Assembly: GCF_013401515.1 (NCBI RefSeq)
Contig: NZ_CP058529.1
Location: 3,100,001-3,164,000 of the forward strand
DNA length: 64,000 nucleotides
Direction: 5' to 3'
Origin: Halorarum halophilum
GTDB lineage: Archaea; Halobacteriota; Halobacteria; Halobacteriales; Haloferacaceae
Positions 1,850 through 14,300 of the stretch are shown here, piece after piece (the stretch's first letter is position 1; every line of letters begins with the position of its first letter). A program made the position numbers and the translations under genes. Below the pieces are notes generated by a model. The model was not told the origin of the DNA, did not search any database, and saw nothing but the letters and a program-made list of their open reading frames with translations.

Positions 1850-4800
1850 TTATTTCATCTCCTGTGCAGTTTCATATAACGCACTGAGTTGCTCTTCGCT
1901 GAATGGAATCTGCTCGTCGTATGCATCTGACGGCCCAACACTTCGTAATTTATCACTGTCCCTAAATGGATCTGGGAGGTCGTCATCCGTGAGTTCCAGA
2001 CTGTTGGGACTCACTTCGTGGACACCTCCATTGTTCTCAAGCTCCACTAGATTCGACTGGATTTGGCCGGACGCCCCAGGTTGGCCGCGGACCGACTTTG
2101 TTTCAAAGATATATTTAACTCCGCCATTGTCTCCGAGGACCATGTGATCGAATTCGTATTCTTCTCCTGTCGCAGTTCTCACGATGATTCCCTTGTTCTC
2201 GCCGAAAGGAACAAGGTTCCCTTCTGCACGGTATTTAGCCAAAACAGTTTCTTGGGCTATAATTTCTGCCATATCTCCTCGATTTTTACCGACGGTTTTC
2301 CCGGACCTCACATAGATACTCAGTCCTCTTGCGTGTTCCCGTAGGCTAAGCCCCTGAGAGTCCAGCTCATTGATCCGCCCAGCGGAAATATGCTCGGCCA
2401 TCCAGACGATGTCCTCGCTCGTCTCGGCGTCCGCGTCGGCGATGGCTTCGTAGAGGTCACGCTTCGTCCTCGGGTCGAGTCCATCAACGGTCTCAGCAAA
2501 CGCTTCGTGATCGTCGGCGTGTCGGGCATAGTTCGTCCGAAGGTCCTCCAGTTCCGCCTCGGAGAGCCCACAGTCCCTCGGTGTGAACGTGCTGTACCCG
2601 CCCGATGCAGGGACGGAACACCGCGTGCCGAGGTTCAGCAGGTCGCGCCGCGTCTCGGAATCCATACGATTGAGCGTCCGGACGCCGTCCTGCCCGGTCG
2701 TCTGGAGGTACACCCGAAGCGCCTGCTGTTCGGTGGTGGTGAGGTCAGTCCCGTCGACGTCCACCTGCCGGCTCAACTGCCAGACCTGCACCTTCGAGCC
2801 AACGGTCTTCGCCCCGCGAACCGTCCCGGACCCGACGCGTCCGGCCCCCTCCACGAGTTTCGTGACGACGAACACCTCGGCCGCATCCTTCCGGTGTTTC
2901 AGCCCCTTCAGGGAGCGATAGGTCGTCGACCGGTCGCCGAGCACGTCGTCGATCTTCTTAGTGTATCGTGAGTTGGCGACGACCCTGCTCCCAGTTGCGG
3001 TAACGACGATTTGCGCGACTTTCCCGACGACGTACGCCTCGTACCAGCCGACCTTGTATTTCGTATACAACTCGGGGTTTTCTGCCTTGTCGTACGGGTT
3101 GTTCGTCTCTTGGAGCTCATGAATCGGGCCGAAGAACGCGTTGATCAGAATGTCCAGCAGGCCGTACTGCTCCAGGATGTCGATGATTTCCGTGACGCCC
3201 TGGAGGTACTCGACAGGGTTCTCACGGAGTGACTGATACACTTCGTAGGTCCCCTCCACACCCTGTTTGGCGCCGCGAACGGTCGACCCCCAGCTCGCAG
3301 CATACCCGGAGACCGCGCCCAGTCCCCACGCGGCAGCCGGCGTGTTGAGGCTGGGGTAGTCGTACTCCTCGACGAGGTTGCCGTAGAAGTTCGCCCGTTC
3401 GAGCGCGACCATCCGGGTCTCCGTCTGGTGCGCGTCCGTCGCGGTCACGTCCACGGTCGTCCCCGTCACCACGTCGGCGCTTGTCTCCAGGAAGCCGACC
3501 TCGAAGTACACCCGGCCGCCGATGTTCTGCGGCCGGCCGTCGAAGTCGAGTGCCTCCTGAACGTCGCCCTCCTTGATGAACCGCACCTCCGAAACGCCGC
3601 TTGGGTCCTCGGCCGAGTAGAGGATGGCGTACTCGGAGTGGAGGTCCTCCGTGCCGTACTTCGCCTGGTGGATGGTGACCGCCGGCGGCCGGTAGTCGTG
3701 CAACGTCGGGTCCGTCTCCCACCGGTGGACCTCCCGACCGTCCGTGACGCCATCGCCATCCGAGTCGGCATCGTCGGGGTTCGTGCTCAGGGCGACCTCG
3801 CGGGAGTCCGAGAGGCCGTCGTCGTCGGTGTCGGTCCGCATCGGATCGGTCCACGCGGAGCGGGATTCGAGTTCCGCGACCATCTCGTCGGCGCTCTCGG
3901 CCTGCAGGAGTGCGCGCGAGTCCTCGGCGGAAGTGGTGACGCGGTACGACTGCTGTTCGTAGGTCTCCTCGTAATCGGTGAGGCCGTCCCCGTCGCCGTC
4001 GACCGTGGTCGGGTCGCTGTCCAGCCTGGTGTACGTCCCGTAGTCGTTCTCCGCCGGCCCGTCGATCTCCCTGCCGTCCGAGAGGCCGTCGCCGTCCGTG
4101 TCCGCCGAGTACGGGTTCGTGTAGATCGTCTCGCCCGTCCCGAGGGTGAACCCGCCCGTCTCCCTCGCGTTCGTCAGCCCGTCACCGTCGCTGTCGTGCG
4201 TCGCGGAGACGGTCACGTCGCTCACGCGGAGCGTCGCACCGTTCGAGGCGGTGAATCGAACCGTGACCGTGTCGCCGCCGACCTTCGAGAGGTCGACCTC
4301 CCGCGTGACCGTCCCGCTGGTGCCGCTGTCGAGTTGGAACAGTTCCCGGTCGCCGCCGGTCGTCTCGACGACCGCCGCCGCGTCCGACGTACTGTCCGCC
4401 GTGGCGTCGCCCTCGACCGTGACGCTGACCGTCGCGTCGGCCGCGTCGTCCTCGAAGGTGACGCCGCGTTCGAGCGTCGAGGTCGTCCCGCTCGACGACG
4501 AGGTGGCTACACTCCCCGAGAGCGAGACGATGCAGCCGCCGGTGTAACAGCGGTCGTCATCGTCGTCGTCGCCGTCGTCGCCATCGTCGCCATCGTCACC
4601 GCCGTCATCACCGTCATCGCCATCGTCACCACCGCTTCCCCCGTCGTCGACGCTCGGCGCGTCCGACTCCACGACGGCGTCGGTGCCGTCGGTGGAGACG
4701 TCGCCGATCGCGGTCCAGTCGTCGAGATCGGAGAACCCGCCGTCGATGATCCTCCGTTCCTGATCGTCGCCCGACCCGCCGGAGCCGGAGTCACTCGACC

Positions 4801-7800
4801 CGCCGGAGTCGTCCCCGGTCGAGAACTGCGTCGGGTACCACTGCCCGTCGAACACGATGTAGATCGAGAAGTGCGGCGTCGTCGCGCTGACCGTGTCGTT
4901 CGCCGCGTCGACCGTCGACGGGACCTCCTCGAACGTCTGGGCGTCCGGCTTCCACCGGAACACCGCCAGGTCGGACTCGCCGCTCACGGTCGACTCGTCG
5001 TACGACAGCGTGAGCGTCGCCTCGTCGAACTCCCGCCCGGCCGTGAAGTCGAGCGGCTTCGAGGCCGCGACGGACGCGACGGCGTCGCTCGTGACCATCG
5101 CGTCCGTACTGTTCCGTACGGTGACCGACTCCGCCACGTTCCCCTGACCCGTGATCGACACCGAGGCGCCGACTGACTCGTTCGTTGTGGTCGTGGTGAA
5201 CGTCTCCTCACCGTCGGGGACGTCGTCGTCGTCCGTGTCCCCGACGAGCGGGTCGGTCCCGAGCTCGAGTTCCTCGTCGTCACGGAGCCCGTCGTCGTCG
5301 GTGTCCGGCGAGCGCGGGTCCGTCCCGTGCTCGGCCAGTTCGACGGAGTCGTTCAGCGTGTCGAAGTCCGTGTCGGTCGCGGTCGGGTCCGTTCCCGCAC
5401 GCTCCTCGGCTGCGGTTTCGAGGCCGTCGCCGTCGCCGTCCTCCCTGGCGTCCCCGACGCCGTCACCGTCGCTGTCCTCGCTGAGTGGGTCGAGCACCGA
5501 GAAGCGGACTTCGAAGCCGTCGGTGACGCCGTCGCCGTCCGTATCGTCGTCGAACGGGTCCGTGCCGAACACCTCCTCGTAGTGCGACTCGACCTGGTCG
5601 GCGTCGAAGTCCTCGAGCCCGTCCGGAACATCGTTCGCCGATTCGTCGGCGTTCGTGACCGCGGAATCGCTGACGTTCGAGAGCGGGTCAGTCTTCGTCG
5701 TTCGGACCTCGTACGCGTCCGTGAGGCCGTCCCCGTCCGTGTCGGCGAGCAGCGGGTCCGTGTCGAGTTCCTGCTCGCGGGCGTTGGTCAGCGAATCGTT
5801 CTCCAGGTCCTCGGCATCGTCGGTGATGCCGTCGTCGCCCTCGCTCGCGTTCGTCCCCGCACTGTCACTGTCGACCGCGAGCGGCGAGGTGAGCGACCGC
5901 TCCACCTCGAAGGCGTCCGTCAGCGTATCGCCGTCCGTGTCGGGGTCGACTGGACTCGTGCCCGCTGCCTGTTCGTCGATGTTGACCAGCCCGTCGCCGT
6001 CCGGGTCCTCCACCGCATCGAGCGTGCCGTCCCCGTCGGTGTCGTTCGTGAGCGGGGACAGCGTGTCGTAGGCCTGCTCGAAGCCGTCGCGGAGCCCATC
6101 GTCGTCCGTGTCCGGGTCGAACGGATCGGTCTCGGCTGCGAACTCCATCGCGTTCGCGAGCCCGTCGCCGTCGAAGTCCTCGCTCCCGTCGACGACGCCG
6201 TCACCGGCCTCGTCCGGAACCGTCCTCCCGGTGTCGCTGTCGGGAACGAGCGGGTTCGTCTTCGTCGTGTCTACCTCGTAGTAGTCGGTGAGGTTGTCCG
6301 CGTCCGTGTCGGGGTCGAGCGGGAGCGTCCCGTACCGCTGTTCGCCGACGTTCACGAGCCCCTCGTCGTCGGGGTCCTCCCGCCCGTCGGGGACGCCGTC
6401 GCCGTCCGTGTCCCTGCGGAGCGGATCGACCGTCGCGAAGCGATGCTCGAAGAGGTCCGTCAGGGTGTCGTCGTCCGTATCCGCGTCGAACGGGTCGGTC
6501 GAGACGTTCTGCTCGATCCGGGTCGCCAGCGCGTCCCCGTCGAAGTCCTCCGCCCCGTCGCGGACGCCGTCGTCGGCTTCCGAACGGTTCGTCCGCGTCG
6601 AGTCGCTGTCGACGTCGGTCGGATCGGTTCGCGTCGTCCCCACCTCATAGGCGTCCGTCAGGAAATCGTCGTCAGTGTCGGCGTCGGTGGGAACCGTCCC
6701 GTTCGACTGTTCGTGGAGGTTGACGAGCGTCTCGCCGTCCGGGTCCTCCCAGGTGTCGAGGGTGCCGTCCCCGTCCGTATCGTTCGTCGTGGGGTCGATC
6801 GTGTCGTACGCGTGCTCGAACGCGTCTCGCAGCCGGTCGTCGTCCGTGTCCGGGTCGAACGGATCGGTCGAGACGTTCTGCTCCAATGCTGTGGCGAGCG
6901 TATCGTTCTCGAAGTCCTCCGCGCCGTCGGACACCCCGTCCCCGGACTCGTTCGTCCCGGTCCGAGCGGAATCGCTGTCCGCGACGGTCGGGACCGTCAG
7001 CGTCGTGTCCACCTCGTACGCGTCGGTGAGCCGGTCGCCGTCCGTATCGACGACGTTCGGGTTCGTCCCGTGTCGCTGCTCGCGGACGTTGGTGAGCCCG
7101 TCGGGTTCGGTGTCGTCCTGTCCGTCCGGCACCCCGTCACCGTCGGTGTCCGCGGCGAGGGGGTCGAGGTGCTCGTAGGAGAGCTCGAACCAGTCGGTGA
7201 GGTCGTCGTCGTCGGTGTCGACGTCGAACGGGTCGGTTCCGGCGTGGTACTCGACGACCGTGGTGACGCGGTCGCCGTCGAAGTCCTCCGCGCCGTCGAC
7301 GATTCCGTCGTCGGCCTCCGAGACGTTCGTCGTCGGCGCGTCGCTGTCCATATCGAGCGGCGACGTGCCGACGACCGACCGCTCGTAGCTGTCCGGGAGC
7401 CCGTCCGCGTCGAGCAGGAGCGTGTCGCTGCCGGTCGACGATGAGCGTTCCTCGTCACTGCCGGCGCCGTCGTTCCCGTCCCCACGGTTCCCCTTCGCCC
7501 CCCGCTCACGCGCGCCCAGGTGGGCATTCTCGTCGGTCGCGTCGACGGTGATCTCGTTGACCGGCTTGTCCAGCGTGAGCGTCGTGTTGAACCTGCCCGT
7601 CGCGAACGGCGCGGGTCCGCGCTCCAGTTTGACCCCCTTCGCGGTGCCGTCGGCGAACGTGACGGTCACCGTTCGAATCTCGAACGTCCGGACGTCGGTG
7701 ACGGTCCCGTTCAGCCGGTAGGTGATCGACTCGGCGTGTCGGGGGTCCGCACGCGTGGTGATCGAGACGCGGGGGGTAACCGCCCGGTCCATCGTGTCGA

Positions 7801-8356
7801 GTGCGGTCTGGGCGTGCTGCCAGGCGCGTCGGTAGCGCTGAACGCGCGCGACTGGGGTGTCGCCGCCGTTCGCAAGTGCGGTCCGTGCTCGCGAGAGTTC
7901 CTGCTCGACGCTCGCCTCGTCGTAGGTGACGTTCGAATCGGCGGAGAGTTCGTCGTGGGCGGCTTCCGTGTCGGCGAGCGCAGTGCGCGCGAGTCGTTCG
8001 TCCGCGTCGGCGATTCCCTCGGCGACGCCCGGTGCGTCGCGCTGTGTGCGCGTGACGATCCGCCTATCGGCCGCGAACACGGAGTCGTCGACGCGGTTCG
8101 GCCCGACGTAGGCGGCGACCGTTCGATTCAGTGCGGTCAGGAGTTCCTCTTTCTGGCCCGGCTTCCCCTTCACCGTCGTGTCCTGGAGGGCGGAGAACGC
8201 TGCCTCGCGCTGTGAGAGCGAATCGATCTGGCTCGAAGAAGCGGGAACGCCCTCGCTCGGTGTAGAAGCGGGGAACGCAATTCCAACGGTCGTCGCGCTC
8301 AAAATCAGCAGGAGGGAGAAGATAATTGCAGACGTCTGCTGGTGACTGATACGCAT
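1850..8356 (-). CDS. Giant exported TSP3-repeat protein with C-terminal nuclease domain; predicted polymorphic toxin
   Basis: The protein has 2168 residues. Residues 1-30 form a Sec-like signal peptide; 40-190 are helical; about 195-270 is an Ig-like domain; about 310-1048 are thrombospondin-type-3 repeats (DTDGDG/DSDGDGVTD motifs that bind calcium). A beta domain (1050-1180), a Gly/Asp-rich linker (about 1230-1273), a beta-sandwich opening with a CYTGGC pair, more TSP3 repeats (about 1390-1555) and another Ig-like domain (to about 1646) follow. A helical pre-toxin region leads to the C-terminal domain from about 2019. There E2031/E2036, D2070 (EFDHMV) and E2085-x-K2087 (FETKS) form a PD-(D/E)XK-type nuclease signature. 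The family idea is a cell-surface or secreted toxin on a rigid stalk that delivers a DNase or RNase into neighbours. The last 500 bases are distinctly A+T-richer than the rest. The domain assignment is by eye; the toxin role is inferred. Confidence 0.75.
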   Translation of the reverse strand: MRISHQQTSAIIFSLLLILSATTVGIAFPASTPSEGVPASSSQIDSLSQREAAFSALQDTTVKGKPGQKEELLTALNRTVAAYVGPNRVDDSVFAADRRIVTRTQRDAPGVAEGIADADERLARTALADTEAAHDELSADSNVTYDEASVEQELSRARTALANGGDTPVARVQRYRRAWQHAQTALDTMDRAVTPRVSITTRADPRHAESITYRLNGTVTDVRTFEIRTVTVTFADGTAKGVKLERGPAPFATGRFNTTLTLDKPVNEITVDATDENAHLGARERGAKGNRGDGNDGAGSDEERSSSTGSDTLLLDADGLPDSYERSVVGTSPLDMDSDAPTTNVSEADDGIVDGAEDFDGDRVTTVVEYHAGTDPFDVDTDDDDLTDWFELSYEHLDPLAADTDGDGVPDGQDDTEPDGLTNVREQRHGTNPNVVDTDGDRLTDAYEVDTTLTVPTVADSDSARTGTNESGDGVSDGAEDFENDTLATALEQNVSTDPFDPDTDDDRLRDAFEHAYDTIDPTTNDTDGDGTLDTWEDPDGETLVNLHEQSNGTVPTDADTDDDFLTDAYEVGTTRTDPTDVDSDSTRTNRSEADDGVRDGAEDFDGDALATRIEQNVSTDPFDADTDDDTLTDLFEHRFATVDPLRRDTDGDGVPDGREDPDDEGLVNVGEQRYGTLPLDPDTDADNLTDYYEVDTTKTNPLVPDSDTGRTVPDEAGDGVVDGSEDFDGDGLANAMEFAAETDPFDPDTDDDGLRDGFEQAYDTLSPLTNDTDGDGTLDAVEDPDGDGLVNIDEQAAGTSPVDPDTDGDTLTDAFEVERSLTSPLAVDSDSAGTNASEGDDGITDDAEDLENDSLTNAREQELDTDPLLADTDGDGLTDAYEVRTTKTDPLSNVSDSAVTNADESANDVPDGLEDFDADQVESHYEEVFGTDPFDDDTDGDGVTDGFEVRFSVLDPLSEDSDGDGVGDAREDGDGDGLETAAEERAGTDPTATDTDFDTLNDSVELAEHGTDPRSPDTDDDGLRDDEELELGTDPLVGDTDDDDVPDGEETFTTTTTNESVGASVSITGQGNVAESVTVRNSTDAMVTSDAVASVAASKPLDFTAGREFDEATLTLSYDESTVSGESDLAVFRWKPDAQTFEEVPSTVDAANDTVSATTPHFSIYIVFDGQWYPTQFSTGDDSGGSSDSGSGGSGDDQERRIIDGGFSDLDDWTAIGDVSTDGTDAVVESDAPSVDDGGSGGDDGDDGDDGGDDGDDGDDGDDDDDDRCYTGGCIVSLSGSVATSSSSGTTSTLERGVTFEDDAADATVSVTVEGDATADSTSDAAAVVETTGGDRELFQLDSGTSGTVTREVDLSKVGGDTVTVRFTASNGATLRVSDVTVSATHDSDGDGLTNARETGGFTLGTGETIYTNPYSADTDGDGLSDGREIDGPAENDYGTYTRLDSDPTTVDGDGDGLTDYEETYEQQSYRVTTSAEDSRALLQAESADEMVAELESRSAWTDPMRTDTDDDGLSDSREVALSTNPDDADSDGDGVTDGREVHRWETDPTLHDYRPPAVTIHQAKYGTEDLHSEYAILYSAEDPSGVSEVRFIKEGDVQEALDFDGRPQNIGGRVYFEVGFLETSADVVTGTTVDVTATDAHQTETRMVALERANFYGNLVEEYDYPSLNTPAAAWGLGAVSGYAASWGSTVRGAKQGVEGTYEVYQSLRENPVEYLQGVTEIIDILEQYGLLDILINAFFGPIHELQETNNPYDKAENPELYTKYKVGWYEAYVVGKVAQIVVTATGSRVVANSRYTKKIDDVLGDRSTTYRSLKGLKHRKDAAEVFVVTKLVEGAGRVGSGTVRGAKTVGSKVQVWQLSRQVDVDGTDLTTTEQQALRVYLQTTGQDGVRTLNRMDSETRRDLLNLGTRCSVPASGGYSTFTPRDCGLSEAELEDLRTNYARHADDHEAFAETVDGLDPRTKRDLYEAIADADAETSEDIVWMAEHISAGRINELDSQGLSLREHARGLSIYVRSGKTVGKNRGDMAEIIAQETVLAKYRAEGNLVPFGENKGIIVRTATGEEYEFDHMVLGDNGGVKYIFETKSVRGQPGASGQIQSNLVELENNGGVHEVSPNSLELTDDDLPDPFRDSDKLRSVGPSDAYDEQIPFSEEQLSALYETAQEMK
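5600..7335 (-). repeat. Higher-order tandem repeat of about 366 bp inside the TSP3 stalk
   Basis: Within the giant gene the landmark DGAEDFDGD (and variants such as DGSEDFDGDG, DDAEDLENDS and DGLEDFDADQ) recurs at roughly 7300, 6925, 6565, 6190, 5825 and 5620. The first five lie about 360-370 bp, or 122 residues, apart; the last interval is only about 200 bp. Each unit contains several TSP3 motifs in the same order: DTDDD, DTDGDG, EDPDGEGLVN, DTDxDxLTDxYEV, then DSD. The stalk therefore grew by duplication of whole 122-residue blocks, not of single TSP3 motifs. Confidence 0.8.
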
Positions 8357-8491: not shown

Positions 8492-9247
8492 CTACATCCC
8501 GCCTGAGACGGGTATGACCGCCCCGTTGATGTTCCCGTTCGCCTCCGAGCCCAGAAACACCACCAAATTGGCCACGTCCTCCGGCGTGGAGATGCGTCCG
8601 CTCGGCGTCCGCTCGGCGACCGCCTCGTGGACCTCCTCGGGTCGCTCCATGTTCTTCTCGGTCAGCACCATCCCAGGCATCACCACGTTCGAGAGGACGC
8701 CGTCCTCGCCGAACTCGTCGGCCAGGACCCCGGTCAGGCCGTGAAGCCCGGCCTTCGCCACCGCGTACGCCGCCATGCCGGCGGTGCCGTCCTCGGCCGA
8801 CAGCGAGGAGATGGTGACGACCCGGCCCCAGCCGGCCTCACGCATCGCCGGGATCGCGGCGCGAACGGTATGGAAGACGCCGTCCTGAACCCCGTGGACG
8901 GTCCGTTCCCACTCGCCGTCGGCGAGTTCCGCCCACGGCGTGGGTCCGACGCCCGACGGGAGGGCGTTGTTGACAAGCACGTCGACGGTTCCCCAGCGGT
9001 CGATCACCGCCCCGACGGCCGCGTCGATCGAGTCCCTATCGGTCATGTCGTACCGGACGACGAATGCGTCGCCGCCAGCCTCGCGCACGCGATCAGCGGT
9101 CTCCGCCGCCCCTTTCTCGTTGGAACGATACGTGATCGCGACGCGCGCCTGTTCCCGTCCGAAGGCCACGGCCGTTGTCCGGCCGATCCCGGACGAACTA
9201 CCCGTCACCAGCACGGCGCGATCCGACAGGTCCGGTGATGATGCCAT
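8492..9247 (-). CDS. SDR-family NAD(P)-dependent oxidoreductase
   Basis: This 251-residue classical short-chain dehydrogenase has the cofactor motif TGSSSGIG near residue 15, the NNA motif (VLVNNALP), a catalytic Ser in TISSLS, and the Y-x3-K pair in YAVAKAG. The C-terminal NGAVIPVSGGM is typical of 3-oxoacyl-ACP-reductase-like members. The family reduces or oxidises carbonyl/alcohol substrates with NAD(P)H in the cytoplasm; the substrate cannot be told. It faces away from the toxin gene. A perfect GAACATGTTC palindrome lies 40 nt before its start codon, shared with the HTH regulator next door, so it probably belongs to that regulon. Confidence 0.85.
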   Translation of the reverse strand: MASSPDLSDRAVLVTGSSSGIGRTTAVAFGREQARVAITYRSNEKGAAETADRVREAGGDAFVVRYDMTDRDSIDAAVGAVIDRWGTVDVLVNNALPSGVGPTPWAELADGEWERTVHGVQDGVFHTVRAAIPAMREAGWGRVVTISSLSAEDGTAGMAAYAVAKAGLHGLTGVLADEFGEDGVLSNVVMPGMVLTEKNMERPEEVHEAVAERTPSGRISTPEDVANLVVFLGSEANGNINGAVIPVSGGM

Positions 9248-9287
9248 CGGCTGATCTATGGTTCTATCGCCTCACGAGTGTTCGCGC

Positions 9288-9297
9288 GAACATGTTC
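9288..9297. promoter_or_regulatory. Palindromic operator candidate GAACATGTTC, site 1 (SDR gene)
   Basis: A perfect 10-bp palindrome, separated by 40 nt from the SDR start codon at 9247. The same ten bases occur at 10129-10138 and 11400-11409, always 38-40 nt before a start codon. Confidence 0.65.
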
Positions 9298-9446
9298 CGT
9301 CGGGCACGCGTTCGCGGGGATCACGAGCGATCGAAACGCCTCACTGCGCCACCGCTCCCCCGCTGCACGAATCCCTTCAGGTAGAACGGATCGACCGAAG
9401 CCCAGTGCCCTGATTCGACCGATCGTCGTACCGGCCCGGATGCAGG

Positions 9447-10088
9447 CTACTCGACTAGCTCCGTGAAGAACTCCTTGACGATAGTCTCCTCGGCGCGGTG
9501 AAGCACCACGCTCGCCGTCGACTTGCTGACCCCGAGATCGTCCGCGAGGTCGGTGAGCGAGCACCCGCGCGGGGTATCGTAGTACCCCCGTTCGATCGCC
9601 GCGGTCGCGAACCGCCGCTGGCGGTCGGTCAGGAGGTTGGTCGGGTCGACCGACTGTCTGACCCAGTCGACCTGGAAGGCGAAGCCGGTGGCCTCGAGTT
9701 CGTCCCTGAACTGCGACAGCCGCTCCTGGGAGGTGGTCAGTTCACAGACCATCCACCCGTCCTCGAGGGTGTGAGGGAACTGCGGCAGGTTCCCCGACGA
9801 GAGGACGGCGCGGTACGGCGGGGGAACGAACGGAAGCGAGAACTGGACCAGTACCGTCTGCTCGTCGGCGTGCAGCACCTCGTGGGAAATCGGCGCCGGA
9901 GCCCCGCCGAAGAGGTCGTCGACTACGGTCGGGTCCGCCGTCCTCGCTTCCATGATCACGAGCAGCCCGCCGTCGTGCGGGTATGCGCTCAGGATCCGGA
10001 ACTCGTCGTCAGGGTACTCGGCCGAGATCCTGAACGGCCCGCCGAGGTGGTCGCCAGGGGGCCTGAACCTCACTCGCGCGCTGGGCAT
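9447..10088 (-). CDS. Bat-type HTH_10 transcriptional regulator
   Basis: This 213-residue protein has an N-terminal beta-rich sensor-like half and a C-terminal HTH_10 domain (about residues 150-213). The domain contains the family pattern LTDRQRRFATAAIERGYYDTP followed by the recognition helix region DLADDLGVSKSTASVVLHRAEE. The family works as haloarchaeal activators binding just upstream of the TATA/BRE region. A GAACATGTTC palindrome lies 40 nt before its own start, in the middle of the divergent spacer shared with the next gene, so it may control itself, the SDR gene, the divergent membrane protein and the CopD-like gene. No sensor ligand is recognisable. Confidence 0.85.
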   Translation of the reverse strand: MPSARVRFRPPGDHLGGPFRISAEYPDDEFRILSAYPHDGGLLVIMEARTADPTVVDDLFGGAPAPISHEVLHADEQTVLVQFSLPFVPPPYRAVLSSGNLPQFPHTLEDGWMVCELTTSQERLSQFRDELEATGFAFQVDWVRQSVDPTNLLTDRQRRFATAAIERGYYDTPRGCSLTDLADDLGVSKSTASVVLHRAEETIVKEFFTELVE

Positions 10089-10128
10089 ATACTCCGTCTA
10101 TGGGTCCCCTCCGTATTCACGTCACCTC

Positions 10129-10138
10129 GAACATGTTC
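10129..10138. promoter_or_regulatory. Palindromic operator candidate GAACATGTTC, site 2 (divergent promoters)
   Basis: Perfect 10-bp palindrome, extended to TCGAACATGTTCGA (10127-10140). It is centred between two divergent genes: 40 nt to the regulator start at 10088 and 39 nt to the membrane-protein start at 10178. Confidence 0.7.
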
Positions 10139-10177
10139 GAGCACACAGCCATAGCGACGCCACACGTTCGATACACT

Positions 10178-10651
10178 ATGGAACCGTCCGAACCAGGGCC
10201 ACCGGAGAACGCCACGAGCCGGGGCAGAGAACCGCAGCACGACCAGGCCCGACGGGTCGCTGGTATCCCCCCGAAGCAGTTGGTGCGCGCGTTGCTCGGT
10301 GTCGAGGCCGCGTCCTTCTTCCTCGCTGCCGCGGTCCACGCGGGTGCGCTCGTCGACGGATACGCACACTACGAGGCGAGGATAGCCGAAACCGTGATCG
10401 GCGCCGTCCTGCTCGTCGGCCTGGTGACGACGTGGGTCCGTCAGCGCTCGACGTTCACCGCCGCCACGGCCGTGCAGGCGTTCGCGTTACTCGGGACGCT
10501 CGTCGGACTCTGGACGATGTTCGTCGGCGTCGGCCCCCGTACCGTCCCGGACGTCGTGTATCACGTGGTTATCGTACTCGTGCTGCTCGCTGGTATCGGA
10601 GTCGCGTGGCGTGCCCGAGGTGCCGAATCGACACAAGCGACGCCTCGGTGA
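10178..10651 (+). CDS. Small four-helix membrane protein, unknown function
   Basis: The 157-residue protein begins with a charged, Pro-rich cytoplasmic segment (MEPSEPGPPENATSRG) and then has four hydrophobic segments, for example VEAASFFLAAAVHAGALV, AVLLVGLVTTWV, AFALLGTLVGLWTMFVGV and VVYHVVIVLVLLAGIGVAW. The last segment carries a His typical of small haloarchaeal integral membrane proteins. I chose the ATG at 10178 because an upstream in-frame start would place the palindromic operator inside the gene. It shares site 2 with the divergent HTH_10 gene. I do not recognise a family with a known function. Confidence 0.7.
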   Translation: MEPSEPGPPENATSRGREPQHDQARRVAGIPPKQLVRALLGVEAASFFLAAAVHAGALVDGYAHYEARIAETVIGAVLLVGLVTTWVRQRSTFTAATAVQAFALLGTLVGLWTMFVGVGPRTVPDVVYHVVIVLVLLAGIGVAWRARGAESTQATPR

Positions 10652-10803
10652 ACCGGGCCGCGTTTCACGGACGAGCAGGACGGTCCGAAGCTCGGTGACG
10701 GTCGGGGGCGTACTCCGGACGACTTCCGTCTCGAACCGGTCGCCTCGAACGATCCCCTCGCCTTCCGGTAGACGGTTGTTCCTGCCCGGAGTAGCGGTAG
10801 GAG

Positions 10804-11376
10804 ATGTTCAACCACGTGTTCTGGACACCGGTCGACGAGGTCGGGCTCGAACACCTTCAGGTCGGCGAGGACCGTGCGGGGATCGCCGCGGAGGGCGTCG
10901 TCCTCGGAACGAGCAACGGGACCCCGTTCCGAATCCGCTACGAGATCGACTGCGATCGTCACTGGCGGCCGGAGCGAGTCTCCGTCGAGACGCTCGGTCC
11001 GTCAGCTACGTCGATGACGCTCCGCGCGGACGGCGACGGGACGTGGATCGACGGGCGCGGCGACGAACTCCCGGCGCTGCGGGGGGCGGTCGACGTCGAC
11101 GTCTCGGCGACGCCGTTCACCAACACCCTGCCGATTCGGAGGCTGGACCTCGACCCCGGCGAGTCGGCGGACCTGACGGTCGCCTATCTGGACGTTCCGG
11201 AGCTCCGCGTCGAGGCCGACGCCCAGCGATATACCTGTCTCGACCCGGTCGATGAGAACGGCGGTCGGTATCGGTACGACGCCATCGATAGCGACTTCTC
11301 CGCCGAACTGGTGGTCGACGCGGACGGTCTCGTCGTCGAGTATCCCGGCCTGTTCGCACGCGTCGACCCCTCGTGA
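10804..11376 (+). CDS. Putative glycolipid-binding domain protein (DUF1089 type)
   Basis: The 190-residue cytoplasmic protein has the look of the DUF1089/putative glycolipid-binding family: an early FWTPVDEVGLEHLQV segment, ITYEID-like strand GTPFRIRYEIDCDRHW, the WIDGRGDELPALRGAVDVD core, NTLPIRRLDLDPGESADL, and RYTCLDPVDENGGRYRYDA near the end. The family forms a beta barrel and has no proven cellular role. It lies downstream of the membrane protein in the same direction, 152 bp away, and ends just before operator site 3. No signal peptide is present. Confidence 0.8.
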   Translation: MFNHVFWTPVDEVGLEHLQVGEDRAGIAAEGVVLGTSNGTPFRIRYEIDCDRHWRPERVSVETLGPSATSMTLRADGDGTWIDGRGDELPALRGAVDVDVSATPFTNTLPIRRLDLDPGESADLTVAYLDVPELRVEADAQRYTCLDPVDENGGRYRYDAIDSDFSAELVVDADGLVVEYPGLFARVDPS

Positions 11377-11399
11377 CGTCTCGGCGCCCCCCGCACCGA

Positions 11400-11409
11400 G
11401 AACATGTTC
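11400..11409. promoter_or_regulatory. Palindromic operator candidate GAACATGTTC, site 3 (CopD-like gene)
   Basis: Third perfect copy of the palindrome, followed by GAGCGAAC, 38 nt before the ATG at 11448. Confidence 0.65.
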
Positions 11410-11447
11410 GAGCGAACGCCCACTGTGCGTCCCCCCGTCGTCCTCCC

Positions 11448-12263
11448 ATGGTCACCGTGACGCTCGACGCGGCGATGCGCGTACTGCACCTGATGACCGC
11501 CGGCGTGTGGGCCGGCTGGACCGTGTTCATGGCCACGCTGGTCGTCCCGGGGGCGCGCGACGGCCGCCTCGACGCGGACGCCCTACGGTGGTTCACGAGC
11601 CGGTTCTCGCTGTTCTCGAAGGGGGCTCCAGTCGTCATGTTCCTGACCGGGATGTACATGGTCGGGCAGGGATACACGACCGACGCCTTGCTCTCCAGTT
11701 TGCGGGGAACCCTCGTCCTGACGATGATCGGCCTCTGGCTCGTCCTATCGGCCCTGACCAACGTGTCGAGTCGGCGCCTCGCCGGCGGGCTAGAGGCGAC
11801 CGGCGTCGAGCGGGCCGCGACGAACGCCGGGGCACTGTTTACCGCCGCCGGCGTCGTCGCCCTCGCGCTCCTGCTCGTGGGGGGCTGGTTGTCGGAACGC
11901 CACACCAGCAGGTCAACCGATCACTTCGTCGCGAAAGCACGGGTTCCCAGTTCCCCCTCCTCGACCCGAACGTCGTCGAATCCAGCCCGCTCGAGGAGCG
12001 GCCGCAACTCGCCCGACGACTGCCCGGCGATCGGCGTGAACCCCAAAGCAAGTCGTCCGCCGGGGTGCAGGACCCGTCGGATCTCCTGGAGCCCGGCGGC
12101 GGCGTCGGGCCACACCTGCATCGAGTTGATCGAGAACGCGGCGTTGAAGGCCGCGTCATCGAAGGGAAGGTCGTCGGCGGGACCGTATCGGAGGTCAACT
12201 CGGCCGGCGTCGACGGCCTCGGCGTTGCGCGTTCGCGCCATCTCGACCATCTCCCGCGAGTAA
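11448..12263 (+). CDS. CopD-like integral membrane protein with an abnormal C-terminal extension
   Basis: Residues 1-150 form about four helices (VLHLMTAGVWAGWTVFMATL, VVMFLTGMYMVGQGY, GTLVLTMIGLWLVLSALTNV, LFTAAGVVALALLLVGGWL), the pattern of haloarchaeal CopD-family proteins linked to copper handling. Such proteins normally end soon after the last helix. Here no stop codon follows, and the frame runs on for about 115 residues rich in Ser, Arg and Pro, entirely antisense to the methyltransferase gene. The extension is unlike halophilic protein and probably reflects loss of the original stop near 11900. Operator site 3 lies 38 nt before the start. Copper transport is a family-level guess. Confidence 0.7.
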   Translation: MVTVTLDAAMRVLHLMTAGVWAGWTVFMATLVVPGARDGRLDADALRWFTSRFSLFSKGAPVVMFLTGMYMVGQGYTTDALLSSLRGTLVLTMIGLWLVLSALTNVSSRRLAGGLEATGVERAATNAGALFTAAGVVALALLLVGGWLSERHTSRSTDHFVAKARVPSSPSSTRTSSNPARSRSGRNSPDDCPAIGVNPKASRPPGCRTRRISWSPAAASGHTCIELIENAALKAASSKGRSSAGPYRRSTRPASTASALRVRAISTISRE

Positions 12264-12496
12264 TCGACGCCCGCCACCAGACCCTCGGGCGCGGCGTCGG
12301 CTGCCGTCTGGATGCCGATTCCCGGCCCAAAGCCGACTTCGAGGACGCGGTCGGTCGGCTCGACGGCGAGTCCCGAGAGGACCCACTCGGCCATCTCGCG
12401 CTTGTCGCGCCCCGTCATCAGCCGCCCGCCGAGTCGTCCGAGGAGCCCCCGGGGTCGTCCGAACGTCCGGTACAGGAGCGCCTCCTTCAGACCCAT
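11921..12496 (-). CDS. Class I SAM-dependent methyltransferase
   Basis: The 191-residue protein carries the SAM-binding motif VLEVGFGPGIGIQ at residues about 50-62, the acidic motif GVDYSREM, PADDLPFDDAAFN, and the RVLHPGGRLALGF strand. These identify a Methyltransf_11/25-type fold acting on a small molecule or lipid in the cytoplasm; the substrate is unknown. Its 3' half-kilobase is overlapped on the opposite strand by the run-on C-terminus of the CopD-like gene. A divergent or upstream partner on its strand is missing. Confidence 0.85.
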   Translation of the reverse strand: MGLKEALLYRTFGRPRGLLGRLGGRLMTGRDKREMAEWVLSGLAVEPTDRVLEVGFGPGIGIQTAADAAPEGLVAGVDYSREMVEMARTRNAEAVDAGRVDLRYGPADDLPFDDAAFNAAFSINSMQVWPDAAAGLQEIRRVLHPGGRLALGFTPIAGQSSGELRPLLERAGFDDVRVEEGELGTRAFATK

Positions 12497-13014: not shown

Positions 13015-13671
13015 ATGGACAGGGGGATCCACGCGCAGCTCTCCGTTGACGGCGTCGAAACCTGCCCGGTCACCGCGCTGAGCGCGGAGGTCACGGTGGA
13101 GTCCATCGTCAGCGGGGGACGGGACGCGGATGAGGGGGCCATCAGTGAGGCGACGGTCACCGACCCCCACGATCGCAGTTCGGTACCCAACGAGGTCGAC
13201 GCCGTGTTCGTGGACGGCTCGCGGTCAGTCTATCGGTTCGAAGCCGACGGCGACTGTCCGTGTACCCGACTCCCAGCCCACGGCTGTCCGATCCGCGACA
13301 TGCACGCCGAGGCGGGGACGCTGCACGTCTCGTTCATCGTTCCGAGCGTCGAGACGGTTCGAACGATCGTCGCCGACCTCCGTTCCCGCTGCGAGACCGT
13401 CCGGGTTCGCCGACTCACGCGCTCCGCGCCCGACGACGAGCGGACGCTCGTGCTCGTCGACCGGTCCGCGTTCACCGACCGCCAGTACGAGGTGCTCCGG
13501 ACGGCCCACGAGATGGGGTACTTCGAGCAGCCGAAGGAGGCCACTTCTACCGACGTCGCGGCCGCGCTCGGCATCTCGGTGGGGACCTTCAGCGAACATC
13601 TCGCGACGACCCAGTCGAAGCTGCTGGACCAGCTACTCACCAGCCGACCCGCCGCCGACGCGACCCGGTAG
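13015..13671 (+). CDS. HTH_10 (bat-type) regulator with a cysteine cluster
   Basis: The 218-residue protein has a C-terminal HTH_10 domain (TDRQYEVLRTAHEMGYFEQP, then VAAALGISVGTFSEHLATTQSKLLDQLL). Its N-terminal half contains C81-P-C83 and C91 within CPCTRLPAHGCP plus C17, a likely metal, redox or nitric-oxide sensing site. The start at 13015 gives a standard length for the group; upstream in-frame codons are low-quality. It precedes the truncated haemoglobin gene by 76 bp in the same direction, and the pair may form a gas- or redox-responsive unit. Seen: domain and cysteines. Inferred: sensing role. Confidence 0.8.
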   Translation: MDRGIHAQLSVDGVETCPVTALSAEVTVESIVSGGRDADEGAISEATVTDPHDRSSVPNEVDAVFVDGSRSVYRFEADGDCPCTRLPAHGCPIRDMHAEAGTLHVSFIVPSVETVRTIVADLRSRCETVRVRRLTRSAPDDERTLVLVDRSAFTDRQYEVLRTAHEMGYFEQPKEATSTDVAAALGISVGTFSEHLATTQSKLLDQLLTSRPAADATR

Positions 13672-13747: not shown

Positions 13748-14107
13748 ATGTCCGGGACCATCTATCACGAGATCGGCGGTCGGGAAGCGGTCGAAAACGT
13801 CGTCGACGACTTCTACGACCGCGTACTGTCGGACGAGCAACTCGCCGAGTACTTCGAGGGAATGGACATGCGGGAGCTCCGAGCACACCAGGCGCAGTTC
13901 ATCAGTTCGGTCGCCGGGGGGCCGACCGACTACTCCGGCGCCGACATGCGCGAGGCGCACGCGCACCTCGACATCGACGAGGAGGACTTCGACACCGTCG
14001 CGACGTATCTCGAACGGGCGCTTCGAACCAACGGCGTCGGGACGGAGAACGTCGAGGCCATTATGGCGGCGGTGGCCGACCTGAAGGAGCCGATCCTCGA
14101 CCGATAG
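13748..14107 (+). CDS. Group I truncated haemoglobin
   Basis: The 119-residue protein matches the trHbN pattern: GGREAVENVVDDFYDRVLSD with the B10-type Tyr at residue 23, HQAQFISSVAGGP, then YSGADMREAHAHLDI with His71 aligned to the proximal haem ligand, followed by DFDTVATYLERALRTNGV. The family binds haem and handles O2 or nitric oxide in the cytoplasm. The ATG at 13748 gives the usual length. It follows the cysteine-containing HTH_10 gene. The organism is probably aerobic, which fits. No unusual residue is missing. Confidence 0.92.
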   Translation: MSGTIYHEIGGREAVENVVDDFYDRVLSDEQLAEYFEGMDMRELRAHQAQFISSVAGGPTDYSGADMREAHAHLDIDEEDFDTVATYLERALRTNGVGTENVEAIMAAVADLKEPILDR

Positions 14108-14300
14108 GCCCGGCGAGCGACTGAATCGAATCACTCCTCGGATCGATCGTTCCTCCCCAGTTCACTGCGCTCGTGAGTCGCGAGTCGTGCCGGGTCGACG
14201 GCCGCACTGACTCACGGTACCCAGTTCCCGTGGCCGGGCGGTTCGGCGCCGGATGCGGGGACAGTGATAAGGAAGAGACGACCCTAGAGCACCCATACAG

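Follow-up and report, generated by a model that had tools for sequence, protein, structure and literature searches.

HTH_10 proteins are numerous in haloarchaea, and few of them have a defined site on DNA. A 64,000-nucleotide stretch of Halorarum halophilum DNA, called the window below, raises the question of which protein reads a 10-bp palindrome, GAACATGTTC, that recurs between its genes. Three perfect copies are present in the window (9288-9297, 10129-10138 and 11400-11409), each intergenic, as an earlier note on this DNA had stated. The spacings given in that note are also exact: counted as intervening bases up to the predicted start codons, the palindrome stands 40 nt before an SDR gene, 40 nt before an HTH_10 regulator gene, 39 nt before the gene of a probable membrane protein and 38 nt before a CopD-like gene. 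The analysis described here leads us to regard the HTH_10 protein of gene 9447-10088 as very likely the one for which GAACATGTTC serves as operator.

The locus and its palindromes

The proposed owner of the operators is a regulator of 213 amino acids encoded on the minus strand (9447..10088, start at 10088). Its HTH_10 domain (PF04967; E 5.8e-19, above the cut-off) is C-terminal, spanning residues 153-204, with a recognition helix at residues 188-200 (KSTASVVLHRAEE from residue 189). The AlphaFold2 model of the protein has a pLDDT of 89.8. A structure search with the regulator gave a single match to E 9e-4, Thermoplasma Ta1207 (5m86; TM 0.46), which is too weak for a ligand to be named, and the regulator profile found no significant match among PDB sequences.

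Operator 1 (GAACATGTTC, 9288..9297, assigned to neither strand, like the other two) precedes the gene of an SDR-family NAD(P)-dependent oxidoreductase of 251 amino acids (8492..9247, minus strand, start at 9247; PF13561, 9.5e-53). The copy at 10129 is the core of a longer palindrome, CTCGAACATGTTCGAG, perfect over 16 bp, and this operator 2 (10126..10141) is common to two divergent promoters, that of the regulator and that of a 157-residue hydrophobic protein belonging to no Pfam or NCBIfam family, which is probably a membrane protein (10178..10651, plus strand, ATG at 10178). Operator 3 (GAACATGTTC, 11400..11409) precedes a CopD-like membrane protein gene (11448..12263, plus strand, ATG at 11448), whose Pfam CopD match of 1.5e-4 is below the curated cut-off; an ortholog matches at 1.4e-6. 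The conserved part of this protein corresponds to ~11448-11900, and its frame runs about 120 codons beyond the point where its orthologs end, antisense through a convergent methyltransferase gene (11921-12496). Between the two membrane protein genes lies a Glycolipid_bind gene (PF06475, 3.9e-59; 10804..11376, plus strand) that carries no operator of its own; transcription from the promoter of the membrane-protein gene may reach it. Elsewhere in the window, positions 1850-8356 encode a protein of 2168 amino acids with many acidic DxDxDG-type repeats.

The H. halophilum genome (4.28 Mb, 99.85% complete) holds 10 perfect copies of GAACATGTTC. Because this frequency amounts to just ~0.15 per 64 kb, three copies within 2.1 kb are far above chance expectation, which bears out the excess reported earlier; at up to one mismatch, the window contains 4 matches versus 1.2 expected from shuffles. 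The remaining 7 genomic copies lie inside open frames, where most of them encode Asn-Met-Phe in frame (AAC ATG TTC), and no promoter-like site was found among them. All promoter-type copies of the genome therefore cluster in 2.1 kb next to a single HTH_10 gene, and random placement across the genome is not seen. A relaxed search of the same genome for GAACRYGTTC 36-42 nt before an ATG, with the matched sequences judged by eye, found no further promoter-like site. Judged by its perfect and near-perfect sites, the H. halophilum regulon would thus be limited to four promoters. An Rfam search returned no RNA element. A role of the palindrome's ATG as a leader-peptide or alternative start was also considered and rejected; it is in frame for the membrane protein only (45 nt) and out of frame with the CopD-like protein (44 nt) and the regulator (46 nt).

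Conservation of the four promoters

Phylogenetic footprinting was performed on loci fetched through similarity to the regulator protein, the larger stretches being the surroundings of such matches, and loci fetched through motif search were excluded. The site (0-1 mismatch, 37-42 nt) is kept in 37 of 40 orthologous promoters of these relatives. Some of the larger stretches (G103:C1, G332:C2, G461:C2, G335:C7 and G430:C1) were extended with the motif positions known, and the targets in these are not a wholly blind sample. It stands at 40 nt before each of the six SDR orthologs found near regulator orthologs, at exactly 39 nt before all ten membrane-protein orthologs, at 37-42 nt before all seven CopD-like orthologs and at 39-41 nt before 14 of the 17 regulator orthologs, the other three lacking it. 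The expectation from composition-preserving shuffles is 0.02-0.08 sites per gene. Close regulator orthologs carry the palindrome as GAAYATGTTC, 39-41 nt before the ATG, and the Glycolipid_bind and methyltransferase genes have no site. In the sister species G103, all four sites are kept, even though ~9.4 kb separate the regulator from the genes of the membrane and CopD-like proteins. The SDR gene of this species (L143 1508-2259) matches in two frames, over residues 1-141 and 140-251, with its operator intact, which suggests that it is frameshifted.

The pattern GAACATGTTC-N36-42-ATG has 51 matches in 12 genomes with the regulator, versus 3 for a reversed control pattern, and it is found in 231 of 392 Halobacteriales genomes. 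Targets elsewhere include a HiPIP or an ABC transporter. In several genomes, the operator is also located 38-39 nt before the start of a family of 280-320 amino acids without Pfam or NCBIfam assignment (L092, L096, L090 and L078, minus strand from 1501).

The architecture of these promoters was derived from 33 target sites, the majority obtained through motif search. Their consensus reads GAACATGTTC-GAGYRAAY-AnYCA, with a conserved A at -27 and a conserved C at -13 from the ATG. In the window, the GAAY element at the BRE position is GAAC, +5 to +8 after the operator, both at operator 3 (11414..11417, plus strand) and at operator 1 (9280..9283, minus strand); this block could instead be a third half-site. 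The TATA region is poor in target promoters, and the regulators' own promoters often show GATAAGG near the TATA position instead.

Recognition helix and operator flanks

The site also follows the regulator more widely. The interval 25-75 nt from the start was scanned in 143 distinct homologs, and a perfect RAAYATRTTY is present in 64 of them (0.05 in shuffles), located at 38-57 nt and, in 57 of the 64, at 38-47 nt. One mismatch adds 34 homologs (1.6 in shuffles), and the palindrome with 0-1 mismatch thus precedes the start of 98 of the 143 regulators, against about 1.7 in shuffles. Placed ~38-47 nt ahead of the start of the regulator gene itself and conserved among orthologs, it has the arrangement taken here as the mark of autoregulation.

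Operator forms are paired with particular recognition helices. Helix KSTASVVLH goes with ctcGAACATGTTCgag, KSTxSETLH with ccGAACATGTTCgg, NKATASGILH with cgcAAACATGTTTgcg, a further helix of ten residues with cgtGAATATATTCacc and HKSAASRLLH with ggGAACAAGTTCcc. When all alignment columns were scanned for information on the flanking base, first, second and fourth rank went to residues 194, 191 and 188; all three map to the beginning of the final helix in the confident AlphaFold2 model. With V, E, D or I at residue 194, the flank is C in 104/104 half-sites; with G it is mostly T (50/60), and with R mostly G (17/28). This variation of the flanks with recognition-helix residues is an indirect pointer to binding by the regulator itself. 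Helix and flank both track the protein tree, with 10 changes in each and 15 in the two together, and the tree-corrected test of helix-flank pairs is underpowered, with too few independent contrasts. Together, footprinting and covariation strongly support the proposal of the earlier note that the sites form a small regulon of the local HTH_10 protein. That note had considered either HTH_10 protein of the region as the binder; the second, a DmsR_N-HTH_10 protein (13015-13671; Pfam DmsR_N 4e-37), was rejected as an unlikely partner, since its recognition helix, GISVGTFSEHLATTQ, is of another kind and its upstream DNA lacks such a site. The genome contains 23 matches to the regulator protein; 20 paralogs and the DmsR-type gene were examined for an operator upstream, and none of them has one.

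Other arrangements were observed within the family. In a further HTH_10 group (L209, L236, L240, L257 and L224), a AAACCGGTTT palindrome, mostly ggAAACCGGTTTcc, lies 36-38 nt before the start and represents another variant of the operator. In L022, L065, L067, L182, L187, L193 and L200, a GTGAATATATTCAC palindrome is found at 56-57 nt rather than ~40, so that the start is misplaced or the promoter is leadered.

Proposed mode of action and comparison with known systems

Haloarchaeal messages are mostly leaderless, and leaderless transcription was assumed for the target genes. An operator that precedes the start codon by ~40-50 nt would therefore sit just upstream of the BRE (~-33 to -37) and of a poor TATA (~-27), the place from which archaeal activators usually act. 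Since the sign is read from this position only, we consider the regulator likely, with somewhat less assurance than the operator itself, to be an activator rather than a repressor, and it may also act in both ways. In the model that we propose, a signal would be sensed by the N-terminal alpha/beta domain, and a regulator dimer would bind the palindrome through the recognition helix (residues 188-200), activating its own gene and the SDR, membrane-protein and CopD-like promoters, with the Glycolipid_bind gene reached by read-through. The nature of the targets, a reductase and two membrane proteins here and a HiPIP or ABC transporter elsewhere, gives a faint hint of a redox or envelope stress response.

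The palindrome word itself is already known from Haloferax denitrification promoters, having been published for Haloferax mediterranei as CGAACATGTTCG / CGAAYATDKTYG (PMC10062603, PMC11218638). It occurs there in the nirK, nor and nosZ promoters (PMC10062603) and before E6P09_00735, an HTH_10 gene of the nirK-nor cluster (PMC11218638); its binder was called undisclosed in 2024 (PMC11218638). Operator 2 fully matches the 12-bp CGAAYATDKTYG consensus, and operators 1 and 3 match it at 11/12 positions, the outer base differing. Regulator homologs of ~40% identity sit in nirK/halocyanin/DUF2249 clusters, most with a site upstream of themselves. In Haloferax larsenii, the HTH_10 gene and halocyanin each have the site 43 nt upstream, and it stands 67-68 nt before neighbouring cbb3-type oxidase and multicopper-oxidase genes. 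The H. halophilum locus has no denitrification gene, and the best NirK match of the genome scores 57.8 bits against a cut-off of 296.3, so the word appears to be common to sister regulators controlling different genes.

Three other explanations of the sites have to be weighed. The same protein could use the same operator as an autorepressor, its dimer blocking TBP/TFB recruitment until a ligand releases it; one operator between divergent genes combined with autoregulation is a common repressor layout, and the promoters of the regulator itself have a GATAAGG-like TATA element close to the site. We nevertheless hold this to be unlikely, though worth keeping in mind, as the site is placed upstream of the BRE/TATA and not over it, the TATA region of the target promoters is poor, and the word acts positively in H. 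mediterranei, where mutation of CGAAYATDKTYG lowers nos and nor promoter activity (PMC10062603). It is improbable that the palindrome belongs to a global NarO/DmsR-type regulator of anaerobic growth or denitrification, for example the 13015-13671 protein, which would place these genes in an oxygen-response regulon. The identity of the word with the reported denitrification box and the encoding of a DmsR_N protein 1.6 kb away speak for it, but that protein differs in its recognition helix and its gene lacks a site, no NirK match in the genome exceeds the family cut-off, and all promoter-type copies stand beside the 9447-10088 regulator, whose homologs the site follows. After the DmsR_N-HTH_10 gene, a small protein (13754-14110) looks truncated-globin-like by eye, the frame tried having no Pfam match; for H. 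mediterranei, the genes given under the denitrification box include a cyanoglobin (PMC11218638).

Even less credible, to the point of being very improbable, is the reading that the word has no dedicated regulator behind it and either belongs to the core promoter of haloarchaea in general or arises from in-frame Asn-Met-Phe codons. The spread of the spaced pattern over Halobacteriales and the many genomic copies encoding Asn-Met-Phe would fit; a core element, however, would be common, whereas just 3 promoter-type copies exist in 4.28 Mb, and their presence tracks one regulator clade while the flanks track the recognition helix.

With activation by the 9447-10088 protein as the preferred reading, we also lean, with more reserve, towards a rule for a large haloarchaeal HTH_10 subfamily: each member would be autoregulated through nnnRAAYATRTTYnnn ~40 nt before their own start, the flanks being set by residues 188, 191 and 194, and the cluster-encoded HTH_10 protein would be the binder of the denitrification box. 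If true, this rule would be the first specificity code for HTH_10 proteins, and it would offer a candidate answer, in the form of that cluster-encoded protein, to the stated open question of which protein binds the box in haloarchaea. Pairing regulator and operator through conservation and helix covariation yields testable binding predictions for dozens of HTH_10 proteins. The putative four-promoter regulon and the apparent correspondence between operator and recognition helix across the subfamily are new, as is the likely partner of the word, a docking site that very probably belongs to the regulator.

Among known systems, Bat of Halobacterium salinarum is, like the present regulator, an HTH_10 protein, and it is an activator; the bop upstream activator sequence sits just above the TATA. 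The Bat/bop operator sequence differs from GAACATGTTC, the regulator's targets are unrelated to bacteriorhodopsin, and, unlike Bat proper, the 213 residues of the regulator contain no PAS, GAF or BAT match. Mutagenesis of the bop upstream activator sequence is cited in PMC2253796. With NarO of Haloferax volcanii and DmsR of Halobacterium, the regulator shares the HTH_10 domain and a short one-domain sensor without PAS or GAF; unlike that subfamily, it has no DmsR_N match. The closest parallel is the H. mediterranei denitrification box, in which the core palindrome is the same and the promoter of an HTH_10 gene also bears the motif. The box nonetheless lies 66-79 nt before the nirK, nor and nosZ ATGs (PMC10062603), as opposed to 38-40 nt here; the flanks are cc/gg in the cluster-type homologs and ctc/gag in the best H. 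halophilum copy, and the H. halophilum targets are not denitrification genes.
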